From positions 1,459,805 through 1,523,804 of the forward strand of contig JBAXHT010000001.1 of assembly GCA_037138755.1 (NCBI GenBank): DNA of 64,000 bases. Reading direction: 5' to 3'. Origin of the DNA: Armatimonadota bacterium (GTDB taxonomy: Bacteria > Armatimonadota > Fimbriimonadia > Fimbriimonadales > Fimbriimonadaceae). A model generated the notes under the pieces. It did no database searches and was not told the origin of the DNA. It worked only from the letters and a program-made list of their open reading frames with translations. Each line of letters opens with the position of its first letter. Position 1 is the first letter of the stretch. The translations under genes were made by a program, and so were the position numbers. Positions 2,602 to 13,250 of the stretch are shown in pieces.

Positions 2602-2904
2602 CTAAGCTGCGTGGGAAACTGAACTGAGTCCGTCGGTAAGCATCTTGACGTGCTCCGAAGAAAACTCGTCGGTCTTGACGTACTCCTGCATCGCAGATTC
2701 CATCTCGCCAAATGAAGGTGATGTCCAAGTTCCAAGCGGGTCACTGCTGGAATCCAGCTTGGTAAGGGTTAGGCGCAAATTGCCGCCCTCAGCGTACTGC
2801 AATCCGTAGCGAACAAGGTCAGGAATAGAAGTGTAGACACCGTTGACCTTGCTGGTGCCGTCGGTGAATACTTGCTCACTCACCCAATAGAGTCGTCGAA
2901 ACAT
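2602..2904 (-). CDS. Hypothetical protein, about 100 residues
   Basis: From ATG 2904 the protein starts MFRRLYWVSEQVFTDGTS. It has no signal peptide or membrane segment and is mixed alpha/beta (SIPDLVRYGLQYAEGGNLRLTLTKL split over two strands, then a helical C-terminus). A GGAG motif lies about 13 bases before this ATG; a TTG at 2955 would add 17 residues and is less likely. It converges on the SurA-like gene and shares its terminator. I do not recognise the family. Confidence 0.6.
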   Translation of the reverse strand: MFRRLYWVSEQVFTDGTSKVNGVYTSIPDLVRYGLQYAEGGNLRLTLTKLDSSSDPLGTWTSPSFGEMESAMQEYVKTDEFSSEHVKMLTDGLSSVSHAA

Positions 2905-3083
2905 CGTTGTTTTGTAGCTCCTGCCGATTAACGGCTTGTTATATTTTGACGCCAAGCATGTGGAAAAGTGCCCACTTCTCAGCGAATTGAGTTAAGTATT
3001 GGTCAAATGTGTCGTCCCGCCAGGGCAAGTGGCCCATTTCCCGTAGCAATACAAGGACTTCGCCGGTGCGCCAAAATGAATGG

Positions 3084-4475: not shown

Positions 4476-5717
4476 ATGACAATTCGAGTTGCTCACGATT
4501 TCAGTTGCTCCTGGTGTTGGGTAGGTCTCTTTCACGCCCTACGCCTCGAGCAGGAGTTTGGTGTGACCATCGAATGGGTTGGCTATGAACTATTTCCCAA
4601 AGACATGGAGTGGGACTACTCTTCGTGCCCGCTGGAACCCAAAAACAAGCCCAAAACGCCGGGTCGCTTCGCGATCCATTGCTTCGCCGAAGGAATAGCG
4701 GTCCCGAAAGTTGATCGCCCCTACGAACAGCGCACGTATAACGCGCACCAGGCGGTTGAGTACGCCAAAACTGAAGGTGTCGCGAACAGTCTCGTCGAAC
4801 GGCTCTACCGGGCGCACTGGGAAGAAGGAAAGGACATCAATGAATTGTCCGTTCTGAGGCAAGAAGCTGCCGGCATTATTCAGAACATCGAAGAGATGAT
4901 CAAGGCAGCCGAAGGAAACCGCTTCGACGACAAAATCACCGACTTCAATGAACCAGCCTACGCAAGCGGCGTATACAATCTCCCAACCTTCTTTATCGGC
5001 GAGGAGCGGCTGGCTGAACAGCCATACATTAAGCTCAAAGCCGCCATGGAAAAGCTGATTCCAGCAAACCCGGCCGGCTCGGTCTACAGGGACTTGGTTT
5101 TCACCAACCCGCACACGGATCGACCATTCACCTTCATCAATATGGTGACCACCATCGACGGAAAAATCATCTCTGGCGACCGTGGAGAGCATGTCAGCGA
5201 TTTGGGCTCCGCCAACGATCACCAGATCATGAACCGGCTAGAGCACAAAGCTGATGCAGTCCTGTGCGGTGGAACGACCGTGCGAGCAAGCGGTAACTGG
5301 GATCCGGTCACTCCCTATCGAATTGCGGTAACGCGGTCAGGAAACCTCGATTGGTCAAAGCCCTATTTCACCGGTGGAAGAGCAATTGTCCTGCATCCAA
5401 TAGACGTTCACCCCCAGGTTCCGGATGGTATTGAAACGATTGCGTTTAGTGACTGGCCAGACGCCCTTAAACAACTGAAGGGGCGCGGAATGGAGATCAT
5501 CAATGTGATGGGCGGTAGCGAGATCAATGCTTACCTGCTCGAAGCCGAACTCATCGATGAGCTGTTCCTAACTTTGGCTCCCAAAATAAAGCTCGGCGAT
5601 AATATCCCGACCTATGCCGGCGGAACCCCGCTGCCTCGCGAAAAAGTGCAAACCTACAATCTGGCGGAAGTCCATCACATTGAAGACGAGATCTTCCTCA
5701 GATATACCAAGAAATGA
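4476..5717 (+). CDS. Fusion: FrnE-like DsbA-family oxidoreductase + RibD C-terminal reductase domain
   Basis: The protein has 413 residues in two parts. Residues 1-200 are a DsbA/FrnE-type thioredoxin fold: CSWCW at about 10-14 is the active-site CxxC, with the helical insertion (HQAVEYAKTEG, LVERLYRAHW) and the cis-proline region GVYNLPTFFIGEERL. Residues about 210-413 are a RibD_C/dihydrofolate-reductase-like domain: FTFINMVTTIDGKI, AVLCGGTTVRAS, INVMGGSEINAYLLEAELIDEL cut as two motifs, and LFLTLAPKI. RibD_C normally reduces the ribosylamino-pyrimidine in riboflavin synthesis with NADPH. No deaminase domain is present, so a role in riboflavin synthesis is not implied. The reading frame is continuous. 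The gene overlaps the permease gene by ATGA. Confidence 0.85.
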   Translation: MTIRVAHDFSCSWCWVGLFHALRLEQEFGVTIEWVGYELFPKDMEWDYSSCPLEPKNKPKTPGRFAIHCFAEGIAVPKVDRPYEQRTYNAHQAVEYAKTEGVANSLVERLYRAHWEEGKDINELSVLRQEAAGIIQNIEEMIKAAEGNRFDDKITDFNEPAYASGVYNLPTFFIGEERLAEQPYIKLKAAMEKLIPANPAGSVYRDLVFTNPHTDRPFTFINMVTTIDGKIISGDRGEHVSDLGSANDHQIMNRLEHKADAVLCGGTTVRASGNWDPVTPYRIAVTRSGNLDWSKPYFTGGRAIVLHPIDVHPQVPDGIETIAFSDWPDALKQLKGRGMEIINVMGGSEINAYLLEAELIDELFLTLAPKIKLGDNIPTYAGGTPLPREKVQTYNLAEVHHIEDEIFLRYTKK

Positions 5718-6853
5718 ACCCGTTAGCACCTACGATGTTCCTTCGGCGAAATGCCGGGAAGACGGTGCCGCTGGTGCTGGTCATCACCCTCGCCGTGATG
5801 CTCATCCAAAGCATCATTGCGCTCATTAACAGCATTCCGCTGAGCATCAGGACGATCTATCGCTATACAGACGCCTTCCTGGGAGTTTCTCCTCGGTTGG
5901 ATCCAGCAAAGACTCCCGAGTTCGTCAAGATTCTTACGACGAATCCACCCACGGCTATTGATCGAGTGATTCTGTGTCGAGGTAGCGGTGCCCAAGTCAA
6001 AAGCATTGTCGGAAAATGGCCGTTCGCCGTCATGGCGATGGACCGTCCCGACGTCGATTACTACCTCAAGCGTCAGGGCGCAACCGGAATCACGGGGCGC
6101 TACCCAAAAGACGGCGAACCGGAAATGATCGTCAGCGAGCCGGTCGCTCGGAACCAGAACCTTAAGATCGGTGACATCTTTCTCAAGCCAGACGAGGCCG
6201 AAAATTTCTCGCGAATGCCTGTCAAAGTGGTCGGAATCGTGAAAGCTGAGCGCTGGTTGATGCTCAGCAATAAGAAATATTATGCTGACACCCAGCCGAT
6301 CCCCATCGACTTCGCCCTGGTCTTCACTAAAGATAAAGGCAAACAAGGCGAGTATGACCGTTGGGCCGAAAAGAAGATGAAAGGCGAGTTCGCCCAGCTC
6401 TTTGCTTTTCACCAGATTGAAAAGCAATCAGGTGAGATGTTCGCGGTGCTCTACAAGATCATTAACCTCGTGATTGGGGTACTGGTGATCGTCATTACCA
6501 CGATGATGGGCATGCTAATGAACATCTACCAAAGCCAAAGGCTCGTTGAATTTGGGCTGCTCCAGGCGATCGGGTTCACAAAGCAACAACTTCTCAAACG
6601 GGTTTTGATCGAGTCTTTGATTGTCATCGTCGGCGGTTGGTTTGTCGGCCTTGCCGCCGCTCGCGGAGTCCTGCTGATTGCCCAGGCCGCCCTTATGACT
6701 CCGAATGCGTTCGCCCTCGACGTCGCCGACCCCATGGCTCTGCTTTACACAGTTCCAGTCCCGATTGCAATCCTCATCGTCGCCATTGGCACCATCTGGC
6801 TAAGGTTTCGAAACTTCGACCCTGTCGCGGTTGTTGAAAGGAGGTTGGTGTAG
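5714..6853 (+). CDS. ABC transporter permease, FtsX/MacB type
   Basis: The protein has 379 residues. One membrane helix lies near the N-terminus (LVLVITLAVMLIQSIIALI), a large extracytoplasmic domain spans about 45-240, then three C-terminal helices (VIGVLVIVITTMMGMLM; LIVIVGGWFVGLAAA; VPIAILIVAIGTIWL). The segment LVEFGLLQAIGFTKQQLL is the coupling region typical of FtsX-like permeases. Such proteins use ATP for mechanotransmission (lipoprotein release, peptide export, cell-wall enzyme control). The partner ATPase is at 6975-7619. Cargo is unknown. Confidence 0.85.
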   Translation: MNPLAPTMFLRRNAGKTVPLVLVITLAVMLIQSIIALINSIPLSIRTIYRYTDAFLGVSPRLDPAKTPEFVKILTTNPPTAIDRVILCRGSGAQVKSIVGKWPFAVMAMDRPDVDYYLKRQGATGITGRYPKDGEPEMIVSEPVARNQNLKIGDIFLKPDEAENFSRMPVKVVGIVKAERWLMLSNKKYYADTQPIPIDFALVFTKDKGKQGEYDRWAEKKMKGEFAQLFAFHQIEKQSGEMFAVLYKIINLVIGVLVIVITTMMGMLMNIYQSQRLVEFGLLQAIGFTKQQLLKRVLIESLIVIVGGWFVGLAAARGVLLIAQAALMTPNAFALDVADPMALLYTVPVPIAILIVAIGTIWLRFRNFDPVAVVERRLV

Positions 6854-6974: not shown

Positions 6975-7619
6975 ATGATCACCGCCACAAACGTCTCCCT
7001 CGTTTATAACGACCACGAAAAGCAGGTCTTCGCCTGCAACGACGTCACGCTTGAAGTCAAACCCGGCGAATTCCTCGGAATTCTCGGTCCCAGCGGATCC
7101 GGAAAAAGCTCACTCCTCTATCTGCTTTCCGGGCTCAAAAACCCAACGACTGGGAACATCAAACTCCGCAACCAGGATCTCCAAACTCTCAGCGATAGAG
7201 ACCGAGCCGAGCTCCGCCGAAAGCACTTCGGCTTCGTCTTCCAGCAGCCCTTTCTCCTTGGTTACCTCACCGCCCTCGAAAACATCCTCGCCATCTCTCC
7301 AAACTCAAGGCAGCGCGCCGAAGATCTTCTTGCCGAGCTTGGGCTGAAGGACAAACTCCACCGGCTCCCTCACGAACTCTCCGGCGGCGAACGTCAGCGC
7401 GTTTGCGTCGCCCGCGCCCTCATCAATCAACCCGAAGTCATCTTCGCCGACGAACCCACTGCTGCTCTAGACCACGCCAACGGCGAACAAGTCGTTCAAC
7501 TCTTGGACCAGCACCGAGGTAAAGGCTCCCTAGTTATGGTCACCCACGATCCATCCATGCTTAATCAGGCAAACCGAATCGTTGGAATGAACAATGGGCA
7601 GACAACCGCACAACGTTAG
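6975..7619 (+). CDS. ABC transporter ATP-binding protein, LolD/MacB type
   Basis: The protein has 214 residues. Walker A GPSGSGKSSLLYLL (about 36-49), Q-loop VFQQPFLL, signature LSGGERQR (about 137), Walker B VIFADEPT and H-loop VTHDP are all intact. Length and the FGFVFQQ segment match the LolD/MacB/FtsE subgroup that pairs with FtsX-like permeases, here the gene at 5714-6853. A gap of 121 bases with no gene separates the two and contains a heptamer repeat. Confidence 0.9.
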   Translation: MITATNVSLVYNDHEKQVFACNDVTLEVKPGEFLGILGPSGSGKSSLLYLLSGLKNPTTGNIKLRNQDLQTLSDRDRAELRRKHFGFVFQQPFLLGYLTALENILAISPNSRQRAEDLLAELGLKDKLHRLPHELSGGERQRVCVARALINQPEVIFADEPTAALDHANGEQVVQLLDQHRGKGSLVMVTHDPSMLNQANRIVGMNNGQTTAQR

Positions 7620-7915: not shown

Positions 7916-8536
7916 TTGACAACTATAACTCTTCTTACGCTTAGCGGCCTTTGTTGCGCCGCCGTCGCCGTCGACCCAAGTCGCCTTGGGTTCATGGGTT
8001 GGCTTCGAGGTCTTTTCGAAGGCAAGGTCAAACCCGAGCCAGCACTCGTTGCCGCTGCCCCTCCTCGCCTTCGGCAGGAAGGCGGATGGACAACAATCGA
8101 GTGCGATGACCTCGAGGCATTCGACGAATGGCTCGATCGAGACTCCGAGGGTCTGCCCTACCGTCCCGGCGAAGAGCCATCCTTGGGTAGCCACCTGCTC
8201 ATCGAACTTTTTGGCTGCGATGGAAGCACCCTAGAAAAGACCGACACTGTTGGTGATGCAATGGTTGGAGCGGCAAATGTGTCCGAAGCCACCATCGTCG
8301 CCGATTGCTTCAAGGAATTCAAGCCTTACGGCGTCAGCGGAGCGGTGATTATCCAAGAGTCGCACTACACCATCCACACCTGGCCCGAACACGGCTACGC
8401 GGCTGTGGATCTGTTCTATTGTGGGGGCACCGTAAAGGTCCGCCGAGCCGTCGAACTTCTCCAAGAGCGGTTCCAACCCCAACGCATCAAGTTCCTGGTT
8501 GTCCGACGCGGTAGCCAGAGCGAAGTCGAGCGATAA
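7916..8536 (+). CDS. speH: S-adenosylmethionine decarboxylase, prokaryotic class 1B, with N-terminal extension
   Basis: The enzyme makes decarboxylated SAM, the aminopropyl donor for spermidine. The core spans about residues 90-190: GSHLLIELFGCD, GVSGAVIIQESHYTIHTWPE cut at the ESH (Glu148-Ser149, where self-cleavage gives the pyruvoyl cofactor on Ser149), and GYAAVDLFYCGG. Typical bacterial SpeH is about 120-140 residues; this reading gives 206. The extra 85 residues include a hydrophobic stretch (TLLTLSGLCCAAVAV) and a Pro/Glu-rich linker. TTG 7916 is chosen because GAGGA lies eight bases upstream; an ATG at 7994 would shorten it by 26 residues. No spermidine synthase is nearby. Confidence 0.88.
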   Translation: MTTITLLTLSGLCCAAVAVDPSRLGFMGWLRGLFEGKVKPEPALVAAAPPRLRQEGGWTTIECDDLEAFDEWLDRDSEGLPYRPGEEPSLGSHLLIELFGCDGSTLEKTDTVGDAMVGAANVSEATIVADCFKEFKPYGVSGAVIIQESHYTIHTWPEHGYAAVDLFYCGGTVKVRRAVELLQERFQPQRIKFLVVRRGSQSEVER

Positions 8537-10619: not shown

Positions 10620-13250
10620 ATGCTTGCGTCACTAGCCGCCGCCCTCGTTTTCCCGCAATCACCCCAGTTCGAAGCACCTGCCGGAGAGAAGTTTGCTAAA
10701 GTCGTCTATGGTGGCGAAACCGTTTTGCCTAACGGGCGGATCATCACTCCCCTGGGCAAGCGCATGTACACCGCCGAGAACCTTTGGCGAGTCGAACTCT
10801 CGCCAGATGATAAGACGTTGGTGGGAATCACCGAAGCTGGGCTCTCTCTTTTTGATCTAACCCAGACCAATCCGAAGCAACGGCAGATCGCGATTCCAAA
10901 GGGGAGCATCGCCGGAAAGTTCTCGCCGGATGGAACCACTTTTGTAGCCGGTGGTGGCGAGAACGGTGATCTGCTCGTATTTGACACTGCGAGCTGGAAG
11001 ATCGTCAAACGGATTTCAATCAAAACCGTTGAAGAAAAGGATCCTTTCATCGTTGACTTAGCGCTTAGCAAGGACTCCCGCTACGCCTACACCATCGATG
11101 TCGCCCACCAGCGACTCGTGACAATTGACCTTCAAGCGGAAAAAGTGATCGCAAGTGTCAAAGCGGGACGCCAGCCGTACGCGATCGAACTCTCGCCCGA
11201 TGGAAAGTCGGTTTTCGTCGCCAACATCGGAATCTTTGATTACGAGTTGGTCAAAAAGCCTGAAGAAGGAAAGGGAAATCCTAGAGGATTAACCCGCCCC
11301 CCATTTAGCTTCCCCACCAGGGAGGCTGAGGAAGGAGTGGAGTTCGAAGGACGCAAGATTGCCGGACTCGGCGACGCGCTGGTGCCAGATGCTCACTCCG
11401 TTTGGAAATTCAACGTAGTTCAACCAAACGCTCCATTCCCAACGAGGAAAGTGAAAACTGGAATCCTCATCCATGCAACCGCCGGTCAAGGTAAGGCCGT
11501 TGGTGGAAGCTCACCGAACGCCCTCAAGTTTGTCGGCAACGATCTTCTAGTTTCAAACGCTAACAACGACAGTGTTCAAGTCTTCGATACGGCGCTCCAA
11601 CTCAAAAAGACAATCTCCCTCACACCGCAACCCTTGCTTAAGGGTTATCGTGGGGTCATTCCAACTGGACTCGCGACCACACAGGATCACAAGCGGGCCT
11701 TCGTATGTGCAACTGGAATCAATGCCGTTGCCGAGCTAGATCCCAAAACCTGGACTGTCAAAGGATATCTCCCCGCCGGAGATTGGCCGATTGCGGCTAC
11801 CTTCAACAAGCAAGGCGAAATGTTTGTTGCCAATAGCTACGGAATTGGGATGGGACCCAGGGGCTACAAGGAGTTCCGAAAGCCAGATGACGAACGTTAC
11901 GGGATGCCAACCACCGGCGCCATCACTGGCGAATACCTACCTGGAATGATCACAAGGTTCATCCCAAAGCCAACTTCAGAACACACGCAAACCGTTCTCC
12001 GAAACAACGGCTTGCTCCCTGTCAACCGAACTCCAAATTTTCCGAAAGAAATCAAGCACGTCGTGTTCATCACCAAGGAGAACCACACGTTTGACGGAAT
12101 CTTTGGCTCATTGAAAGGAGCAAACGGCGATCCTGACTACGACATGCACGGCATGAACGGGTTCATCGATGGCAAAAGGGATCAGAAAGTGCCGATCATG
12201 CCGAACCACGTTCGACTCGCAGAGCAGTTTGGAATTTCGGACAACTTCTACATGGAGGTCGGCGCATCCGGTGCAGGCCACCGCTGGCTCGTGGGCGTTT
12301 ACGCATCCCTATGGACGTCGCGTCTCTACTACTCGGGGTGGAACTTCAAAGCGAACGACGCTGCGAAGGGGAGGCTCATCAGCTTCGGCTCTAACGGCAG
12401 CCAAATTCCCGAGGACTACCTCGAGAACGGCTCAATGTGGGAGCACCTTGGTCGAAACGGTGTGAGTTTCCGAAACTATGGCGAAGGATTCGAATTTGCC
12501 GACTCTGACGAGGACGCTCCGTTCAGCAAAACCGGAACCGGCGAGGTAGTCAACTTCCCGATGCCTAAGATTCTTTTTGACAACACCTGCTTTGAGTTTC
12601 CCGGCTACAACAACAACATCCCCGACATCGTCCGGGCCGACTGGTTCAAGGAAGATATACAGAACAATTATCGGAACAAGAACAAACCGTTGCCGAAGTT
12701 CATGAACATCGCCATCTGCAATGACCACGGAGCCGGGCCAAACGCCAAGCAAGGCTTCCCCTTCACCAGCAGCTACTTGGCAGACAACGACATGGCTCTC
12801 GGTCAAATCGTCGATTACTTGTCCCATACTCCCGAGTGGAAAAACATGGCTATCTTCGTCACGCAAGATGACGCCGGGGGAGACAGCGATCATATTGACC
12901 GTCAACGCAGCTTCGTCCTTGCAATCTCACCGTATGTGAAGAAAGGCTATGTCAGCCACAAACACACCAGCATCATGAGCATCATCAAGTCGATCTACCA
13001 AATCTTTGGCCTCGGACCCAACAACATGTTCGATGCAGTGGCGACTCCGTTAGACGATATGTTCACCTCGAAGCCGGACTTCAGACCATACAACCATGTT
13101 GCCGCAGACCGCCGAGTGTTCCGACCAGAAGAGACGTTTGATCCCTCTGACCCCGACTTCAAGCGAAGAAGGGCGATGAAATCAGTGCAAATGGACAGCA
13201 AAGAGTGGTTCGAATGGCTTGAGAAGCAGCGAAAGAGTGGTAAGTCTTAA
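10620..13250 (+). CDS. Beta-propeller (YVTN-type) + phosphoesterase-family fusion protein
   Basis: The protein has 876 residues. About 40-450 carry repeated propeller blades (VELSPDDKTLVG, GKFSPDGTTFVAG, AIELSPDGKSVFVAN, DHKRAFVCATGINAV). About 475-860 are a phosphoesterase/acid-phosphatase-like domain of the phospholipase C class: IKHVVFITKENHTFDGIFG, GASGAGHRWLVG, FVTQDDAGGDSDHIDRQRS cut between strands, and SPYVKKGYVSHKHTS. The conserved Asn-His and Asp-His sites are present, so it is probably an active metallo-hydrolase. The N-terminus (MLASLAAALVFPQS) is a short hydrophobic stretch that may serve as an export signal. Phosphate scavenging is plausible but inferred. Confidence 0.82.
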   Translation: MLASLAAALVFPQSPQFEAPAGEKFAKVVYGGETVLPNGRIITPLGKRMYTAENLWRVELSPDDKTLVGITEAGLSLFDLTQTNPKQRQIAIPKGSIAGKFSPDGTTFVAGGGENGDLLVFDTASWKIVKRISIKTVEEKDPFIVDLALSKDSRYAYTIDVAHQRLVTIDLQAEKVIASVKAGRQPYAIELSPDGKSVFVANIGIFDYELVKKPEEGKGNPRGLTRPPFSFPTREAEEGVEFEGRKIAGLGDALVPDAHSVWKFNVVQPNAPFPTRKVKTGILIHATAGQGKAVGGSSPNALKFVGNDLLVSNANNDSVQVFDTALQLKKTISLTPQPLLKGYRGVIPTGLATTQDHKRAFVCATGINAVAELDPKTWTVKGYLPAGDWPIAATFNKQGEMFVANSYGIGMGPRGYKEFRKPDDERYGMPTTGAITGEYLPGMITRFIPKPTSEHTQTVLRNNGLLPVNRTPNFPKEIKHVVFITKENHTFDGIFGSLKGANGDPDYDMHGMNGFIDGKRDQKVPIMPNHVRLAEQFGISDNFYMEVGASGAGHRWLVGVYASLWTSRLYYSGWNFKANDAAKGRLISFGSNGSQIPEDYLENGSMWEHLGRNGVSFRNYGEGFEFADSDEDAPFSKTGTGEVVNFPMPKILFDNTCFEFPGYNNNIPDIVRADWFKEDIQNNYRNKNKPLPKFMNIAICNDHGAGPNAKQGFPFTSSYLADNDMALGQIVDYLSHTPEWKNMAIFVTQDDAGGDSDHIDRQRSFVLAISPYVKKGYVSHKHTSIMSIIKSIYQIFGLGPNNMFDAVATPLDDMFTSKPDFRPYNHVAADRRVFRPEETFDPSDPDFKRRRAMKSVQMDSKEWFEWLEKQRKSGKS

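Follow-up and report, generated by a model that had tools for sequence, protein, structure and literature searches.

The gene at positions 4476 to 5717 (+ strand) of the window, the 64,000-nucleotide stretch of DNA analysed here, raises the question of why a thiol enzyme and a reductase should share a single polypeptide. The gene encodes 413 amino acids, in which a FrnE-like DsbA domain is followed by a Rib7-like RibD_C reductase. The host is a 3.27-Mb genome from the Fimbriimonadia (Armatimonadota; genome G000), and 'Fimbriimonas sp.' is the named relative closest to it. The open reading frame starts with ATG and runs through 413 codons with no internal stop. Pfam DSBA matches residues 3-178 with 48.9 bits (cut-off 25.6), and Pfam RibD_C matches residues 217-396 with 68.5 bits (cut-off 24.1). 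The initial annotation had described one continuous frame with a CSWC motif and then a RibD_C pattern, and this description is upheld: CSWC is located at residues 11-14, TTIDGKI at 225-231, LCGGTTVRAS at 263-272 and NVMGGSEIN at 343-351. The AlphaFold2 model, for which an alignment of 87 relatives was used as input, is confident along the whole length of the protein (mean pLDDT 94.1, pTM 0.79). The linker between the halves (5064..5096, + strand, approximately residues 197-207) is placed by this model and by the site at which the halves are split in relatives.

Could the joined frame be an artefact? In a search of 291 Armatimonadota genomes, a full-length match to the fusion was found in 34, and 30 of these are free of stops. 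The intact copies in approximately 30 independent assemblies (76% to 39% identity), together with the confident model, rule out a frameshift or assembly artefact. The proposed union of a FrnE-type CxxC thiol oxidoreductase and an NADPH-type RibD_C reductase is therefore genuine. Two families (f1 and f2), under 13 genus codes, carry the fusion. In searches aimed beyond the phylum, a plasmid collection gave matches to single halves only and no pair, and a single-sequence scan of genome contigs returned just two close relatives. As far as searched, the fusion or gene pair is restricted to the Fimbriimonadia. The initial annotation had named as a refuter an architecture that is common and already described; this one is indeed common inside the Fimbriimonadia, but no description of a DsbA-RibD fusion was found in searches of open-access papers. 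Within that literature, the DsbA-RibD_C fusion is apparently an undescribed combination of two known domain families. Two loci are damaged: in one (L077, genome G087) the fusion is broken by a frameshift, and in another (L076, genome G150) the gene for the reductase is split into two parts, with assembly error or decay as possible causes in both.

The two halves also occur as neighbouring genes. In about 38 related genomes they form a split pair on one strand and in the same order, and the second gene usually starts between -4 and +10 nt from the end of the first. At two loci (L015 and L017) the halves are parted by a single in-frame stop. Fused and split forms are intermixed within the genus of the host (g1). 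On the combined tree, parsimony requires at least 10 changes between the fused and split states, of which at least three are forced by well-supported branches; this is a quick tree with many weak nodes, so that the exact number of changes is uncertain. Such repeated switching, combined with the tight adjacency of the split genes, constitutes Rosetta-stone evidence that the halves are functionally linked; the link between the FrnE-type thiol half and the reductase half is well supported and bears out what had been proposed for this locus. Recurrent fusion and splitting argues strongly for a task shared by a FrnE-type thiol enzyme and a reductase of the DHFR superfamily, one that is not predicted by the known biology of either family.

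The two partners are not equally constant. In at least 10 genomes of the two carrier families, each with a completeness of at least 90%, the reductase half was detected and a close copy of the thiol half was not (G105, G106, G116, G117, G125, G136, G141, G067, G071 and G073); more distant DSBA-domain proteins could still be present there. The same pattern is seen in sampled genomes from two further families (f3 and f19). The reverse situation, a thiol half without the reductase, was not found as a regular pattern in the two carrier families, and in other Armatimonadota families only a more distant thiol-half match is present. Because the reductase persists without a close thiol copy, it is regarded as the core and the thiol half as a recruited accessory.

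The thiol half (4476..5063, + strand, residues 1-196) has the DsbA/FrnE fold, a thioredoxin fold into which a helical domain is inserted, as indicated by Pfam DSBA and by its VIA match to FrnE of Deinococcus radiodurans (5co3; Z 19.3, rmsd 2.8 Å over 187 residues). In the active-site motif CSWC (residues 11-14, 4506..4517, + strand), C11 is conserved in all 68 relatives and C14 in 67 of them. The second position of the CxxC is Pro in 52 relatives, giving a CPWC-like motif, and Ser in the window. The proline of the cis-Pro loop, P170 in NLPTF (4983..4985, + strand), is found together with T171 in all 68 relatives. Relatives of the HCCA isomerase and GST-kappa type use a Ser. With its invariant CxxC and cis-Pro, the thiol half looks catalytic, unlike those isomerases, and its residues are the ones expected of a working thiol-disulfide enzyme.

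The closest point of comparison is D. radiodurans FrnE (PDB 5cnw/5co3), with which the fusion has in common the DsbA fold over residues 1-196 (Z 19.3-19.7), the CxxC and the cis-Pro loop. The fusion differs in having CSWC (CPWC in most relatives) and an added reductase domain, and in lacking the C-terminal CXXXXC, an optional FrnE feature; apart from the CxxC, no conserved Cys is present in the thiol half. The CXXXXC is found in many, not all, FrnE proteins and has been proposed to regenerate the active site of the D. radiodurans enzyme (PMC8945050). Radiation, cadmium and desiccation induce FrnE in D. radiodurans, and sensitivity to diamide and to cadmium is seen in the mutant (PMC8945050). 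These observations agree with a reading in which the halves form an oxidative-stress repair pair without a shared substrate: a cytoplasmic disulfide isomerase or reductase, co-expressed with an NADPH reductase that acts on an oxidised metabolite. The accessory character of the thiol half, undetected in several genomes, also fits such a pair. However, the constant partner, the constant order and the recurrent fusion and fission would be left unexplained, and we consider this reading doubtful.

A more direct division of labour was suggested in the initial annotation, namely that the reductase half recharges the thiol half. In its full form, the RibD_C half would feed NADPH electrons to the CxxC half, making the protein a self-contained, NADPH-driven thiol reductase. 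The fusion and the tight pairing of the genes speak for this, as does the missing CXXXXC, since another recharging route would then be needed (PMC8945050). Nevertheless, the idea is not supported. The reductase half has no conserved Cys: its best Cys column is occupied in 17 of 75 sequences, and 18 of the 75 have no Cys at all. An electron relay through cysteines was rejected on these grounds. To our knowledge, reductases of the RibD_C/DHFR fold use NADPH without a flavin, and we know of no case in which this fold passes a hydride from NADPH to a disulfide. In addition, where the reductase is kept without a close thiol copy, half of such a machine would have been retained. The cultured relative Fimbriimonas ginsengisoli encodes four thioredoxin reductases and nine thioredoxins (PMC4072686), an ample system that would leave the thiol half with no need of a private NADPH module. 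Taken together, a self-contained thiol reductase is very unlikely. The halves may still complement each other in the sense of serving one pathway.

What, then, does the reductase half do? This half (5097..5714, + strand, residues 208-413) has the RibD_C/archaeal Rib7 fold, as supported by Pfam RibD_C and by VIA Z scores of 25.5 with MjRED (2azn), 25.3 with Rib7 of Methanosarcina mazei (5xux) and 24.6 with Rv2671 of Mycobacterium tuberculosis; the score with DHFR of Thermotoga maritima (1cz3) is 19.0. The TIDGK motif (residues 226-230, 5151..5165, + strand) is strongly conserved, with K230 in 75 of 75 relatives and D228 and G229 in 74. The NADPH pyrophosphate loop GGTTVRAS (residues 265-272, 5268..5291, + strand) has G265 in all 75 and T or S at position 268 in 70, and the NADPH-binding GG of the MGG motif (residues 345-347, 5508..5516, + strand), G346-G347, is present in 74 of 75. 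N351 is also kept. With K230, the IDG residues, G265, G346-G347 and N351 in place, the NADPH site looks intact. On the substrate side, D248 (5217..5219, + strand; 74 of 75 relatives) is the probable ring-recognition acid and aligns with D33 of M. mazei Rib7, for which wild-type, D33N and D33A structures are included in the alignment. N222, present in 68 of 75 relatives, appears to correspond to the archaeal Asn found where bacterial RibD has Lys (compare PMC3631187).

Yeast Rib7 (ScRIB7) needs D83 and E180 (PMC3631187). At position 272, the site of the catalytic Asp of Rib7, the family as a whole has mostly T, S or A and not D. At position 345, the site of the catalytic Glu, the window has Met, genus g1 has L, M or S, and 50 of 75 relatives have E. 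Loss of this VEGG Glu was considered as a companion of the loss of dihydropteroate synthase (DHPS) and rejected, as the Glu change marks genus g1 as a whole. The NCBIfam riboflavin equivalogs TIGR01508, TIGR00227 and TIGR00326 give the reductase half 55.6, 54.1 and 28.3 bits, all far below their cut-offs of 186.45, 150.15 and 156.35 bits, and a separate, complete RibD is encoded elsewhere in the host genome. The presence of RibD, the missing Rib7 acids and the sub-threshold equivalog scores together indicate a Rib7-like reductase with a changed job, and a role as a riboflavin enzyme was rejected. A second, archaeal-type riboflavin reductase serving the ordinary pathway would be in line with archaeal Rib7/RED being the closest solved structures (Z 25) and with Asn222 and Asp248 matching the archaeal pattern. 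Against it are the RibD already at hand, the lack of the D83-type Asp in the family and of the E180-type Glu in the window, and a TIGR01508 score of 55.6 against 186.45, which make it highly improbable. The replacement of both acids, the D83 site family-wide and the E180 site in g1, could also mean that the substrate is a quite different one.

Comparison with known systems helps to narrow the options. Archaeal Rib7/RED proteins (M. mazei 5xux, Methanocaldococcus jannaschii 2azn and M. thermautotrophicus 6p8c) have in common with the reductase half the fold (Z 25, 21-28% identity), the NADPH loop, the xDGK motif, the Asp33-equivalent D248 and, in most relatives, the VEGG-type GG. In contrast to them, the reductase half has no catalytic Asp following the GxGT loop, and the protein of the window lacks the VEGG Glu as well; the reductase half is bacterial and fused, and its host genome already has RibD. 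Bifunctional RibD, in which a deaminase is joined to RibD_C, likewise carries RibD_C as the C-terminal module of a fusion, but in the present protein the N-terminal partner is a thiol oxidoreductase instead of a deaminase, and the substrate residues are archaeal-like. The third comparison is M. tuberculosis Rv2671 ('RibD', a functional analogue of DHFR; 4xrb/4xt4), which has the RibD_C fold and no deaminase domain, and whose match at Z 24.6 is a complex with a dihydropteridine ring. It is about 25% identical to the reductase half and has no thiol domain, and M. tuberculosis also has DfrA. Rv2671, itself a RibD_C protein, acts as a weak DHFR analogue in that species (PMC10812664).

The comparison with Rv2671 leads to the folate genes. 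ThyX is present in all 41 relatives surveyed, and ThyA was found in two of the 41 as partial matches only, with no full-length ThyA. The FolA model (DHFR_1) matches proteins in 12 of the 41 relatives, all of them short RibD_C-type proteins; with this model no match was obtained for the fusion protein of the window or anywhere else in the host genome. DHPS (TIGR01496) is detected in 30 of the 41. In approximately 17 of the 41, and also in G105, G106, G117, G125 and G141, RibD and the fusion-type reductase are the sole RibD_C proteins, and nearly all genomes with just these two have DHPS. These genomes therefore make dihydropteroate and must reduce dihydrofolate somehow. Dihydrofolate reduction is needed in ThyX bacteria without FolA, and ThyX bacteria without a known DHFR form a gap recognised since at least 2007 (PMC1971073). 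For this missing step, the reductase half offers a concrete candidate across the clade. A FolM-type SDR or a flavin-dependent dihydropteroate reductase might also supply the step. It is probably a reductase of the pterin/dihydrofolate type, with the thiol domain performing a separate step.

As the best explanation of the whole, held tentatively and with rather less than even confidence, we propose a folate/pterin-type reductase core with an accessory, co-expressed FrnE-like thiol enzyme. The fusion product would be a cytoplasmic two-domain enzyme of the Fimbriimonadia. Its C-terminal core would be an NADPH-dependent reductase from the archaeal-Rib7 branch of the DHFR superfamily that no longer makes riboflavin. 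The most likely substrate of this core is a 2-amino-4-oxo-pyrimidine ring, of the pterin or dihydrofolate type, whose reduction would fill the DHFR gap of FolA-less, ThyX-dependent bacteria. The FrnE-like half may have a separate substrate within a pathway or stress response shared with the reductase, and its recharging would fall to the ordinary cellular thioredoxin system. Fusion or translational coupling would then provide co-expression and co-location, and no electron wire would run between the halves. That the protein is the long-missing dihydrofolate/pterin reductase of the whole ThyX-dependent order, with the FrnE fusion linking folate reduction to thiol redox control, is considered unlikely.

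The host genome itself departs from the general folate pattern. DHPS (TIGR01496) was not detected there or in nine other genomes (G090, G096, G084, G085, G097, G088, G098, G087 and G127). These ten genomes form the subclade of the host; all have ThyX and an extra short RibD_C protein, and other members of the genus have DHPS. De novo folate synthesis is therefore in doubt in this subclade, which suggests that it has been lost. In the host, the third RibD_C protein, 176 amino acids long (C1:734312-734791), is as good a DHFR candidate as the fusion, or a better one. Two 1.5-Mb genomes of the same family (G132 and G133) have neither a RibD_C protein nor DHPS. This joint absence is in keeping with the proposed folate role, and it suggests a reduced lineage, perhaps dependent on a partner, that is auxotrophic for riboflavin and folate.

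The genes around the fusion bear on one further explanation. An FtsX-like permease (5714..6853, + strand) overlaps the fusion by 4 nt and lies directly downstream on the same strand in 47 of 62 loci, followed by the ABC ATPase of the FtsX transporter (6975..7619, + strand), on the same strand in 43 of 62. These are the stable neighbours; no folate gene is among them, which counts against the pterin/dihydrofolate reading. They fit a scheme in which the halves act in sequence on one small molecule: the thiol domain would be an isomerase, ligand carrier or thiol-dependent enzyme, RibD_C its NADPH reductase, and the FtsX/ABC transporter would move the product or carrier. In line with this scheme, the lost Rib7 catalytic Asp suggests a changed substrate. 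The structural matches include 7xh2 and 7xh4 of SacH, a DHFR-fold enzyme acting on the natural product safracin. FrnE also owes its name to a polyketide cluster (PMC8945050). However, the classical CxxC and cis-Pro are invariant, where HCCA isomerase and GST-kappa use Ser. Sampled reductase-only members of families f2, f3 and f19 have retained the reductase in the absence of both the thiol half and the transporter, and no biosynthetic cluster surrounds the gene. Action in sequence on one molecule is possible but rather unlikely. The FtsX/ABC transporter may be in an operon with the fusion for regulatory reasons only.

Other neighbours are less constant. A SpeH-like S-adenosylmethionine decarboxylase (7916..8536, + strand; Pfam AdoMet_dc) is found in 25 of 62 loci, and approximately 90 of its N-terminal residues lie outside the Pfam match. 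SpeE (spermidine synthase) is found in 15 of the 62. Upstream, same-strand matches to TsaE occur in eight loci and to a Gfo/Idh/MocA dehydrogenase in 10, covering part of the family only. An open reading frame of 117 amino acids at 2602-2955 (- strand) has no Pfam match; its relatives (cluster c7) recur at 12 of the family's loci, and it is taken to be a conserved small protein. Further along the window, 10620-13250 encodes a protein of 876 amino acids with a beta-propeller-like N-terminal part and a C-terminal phosphoesterase domain.
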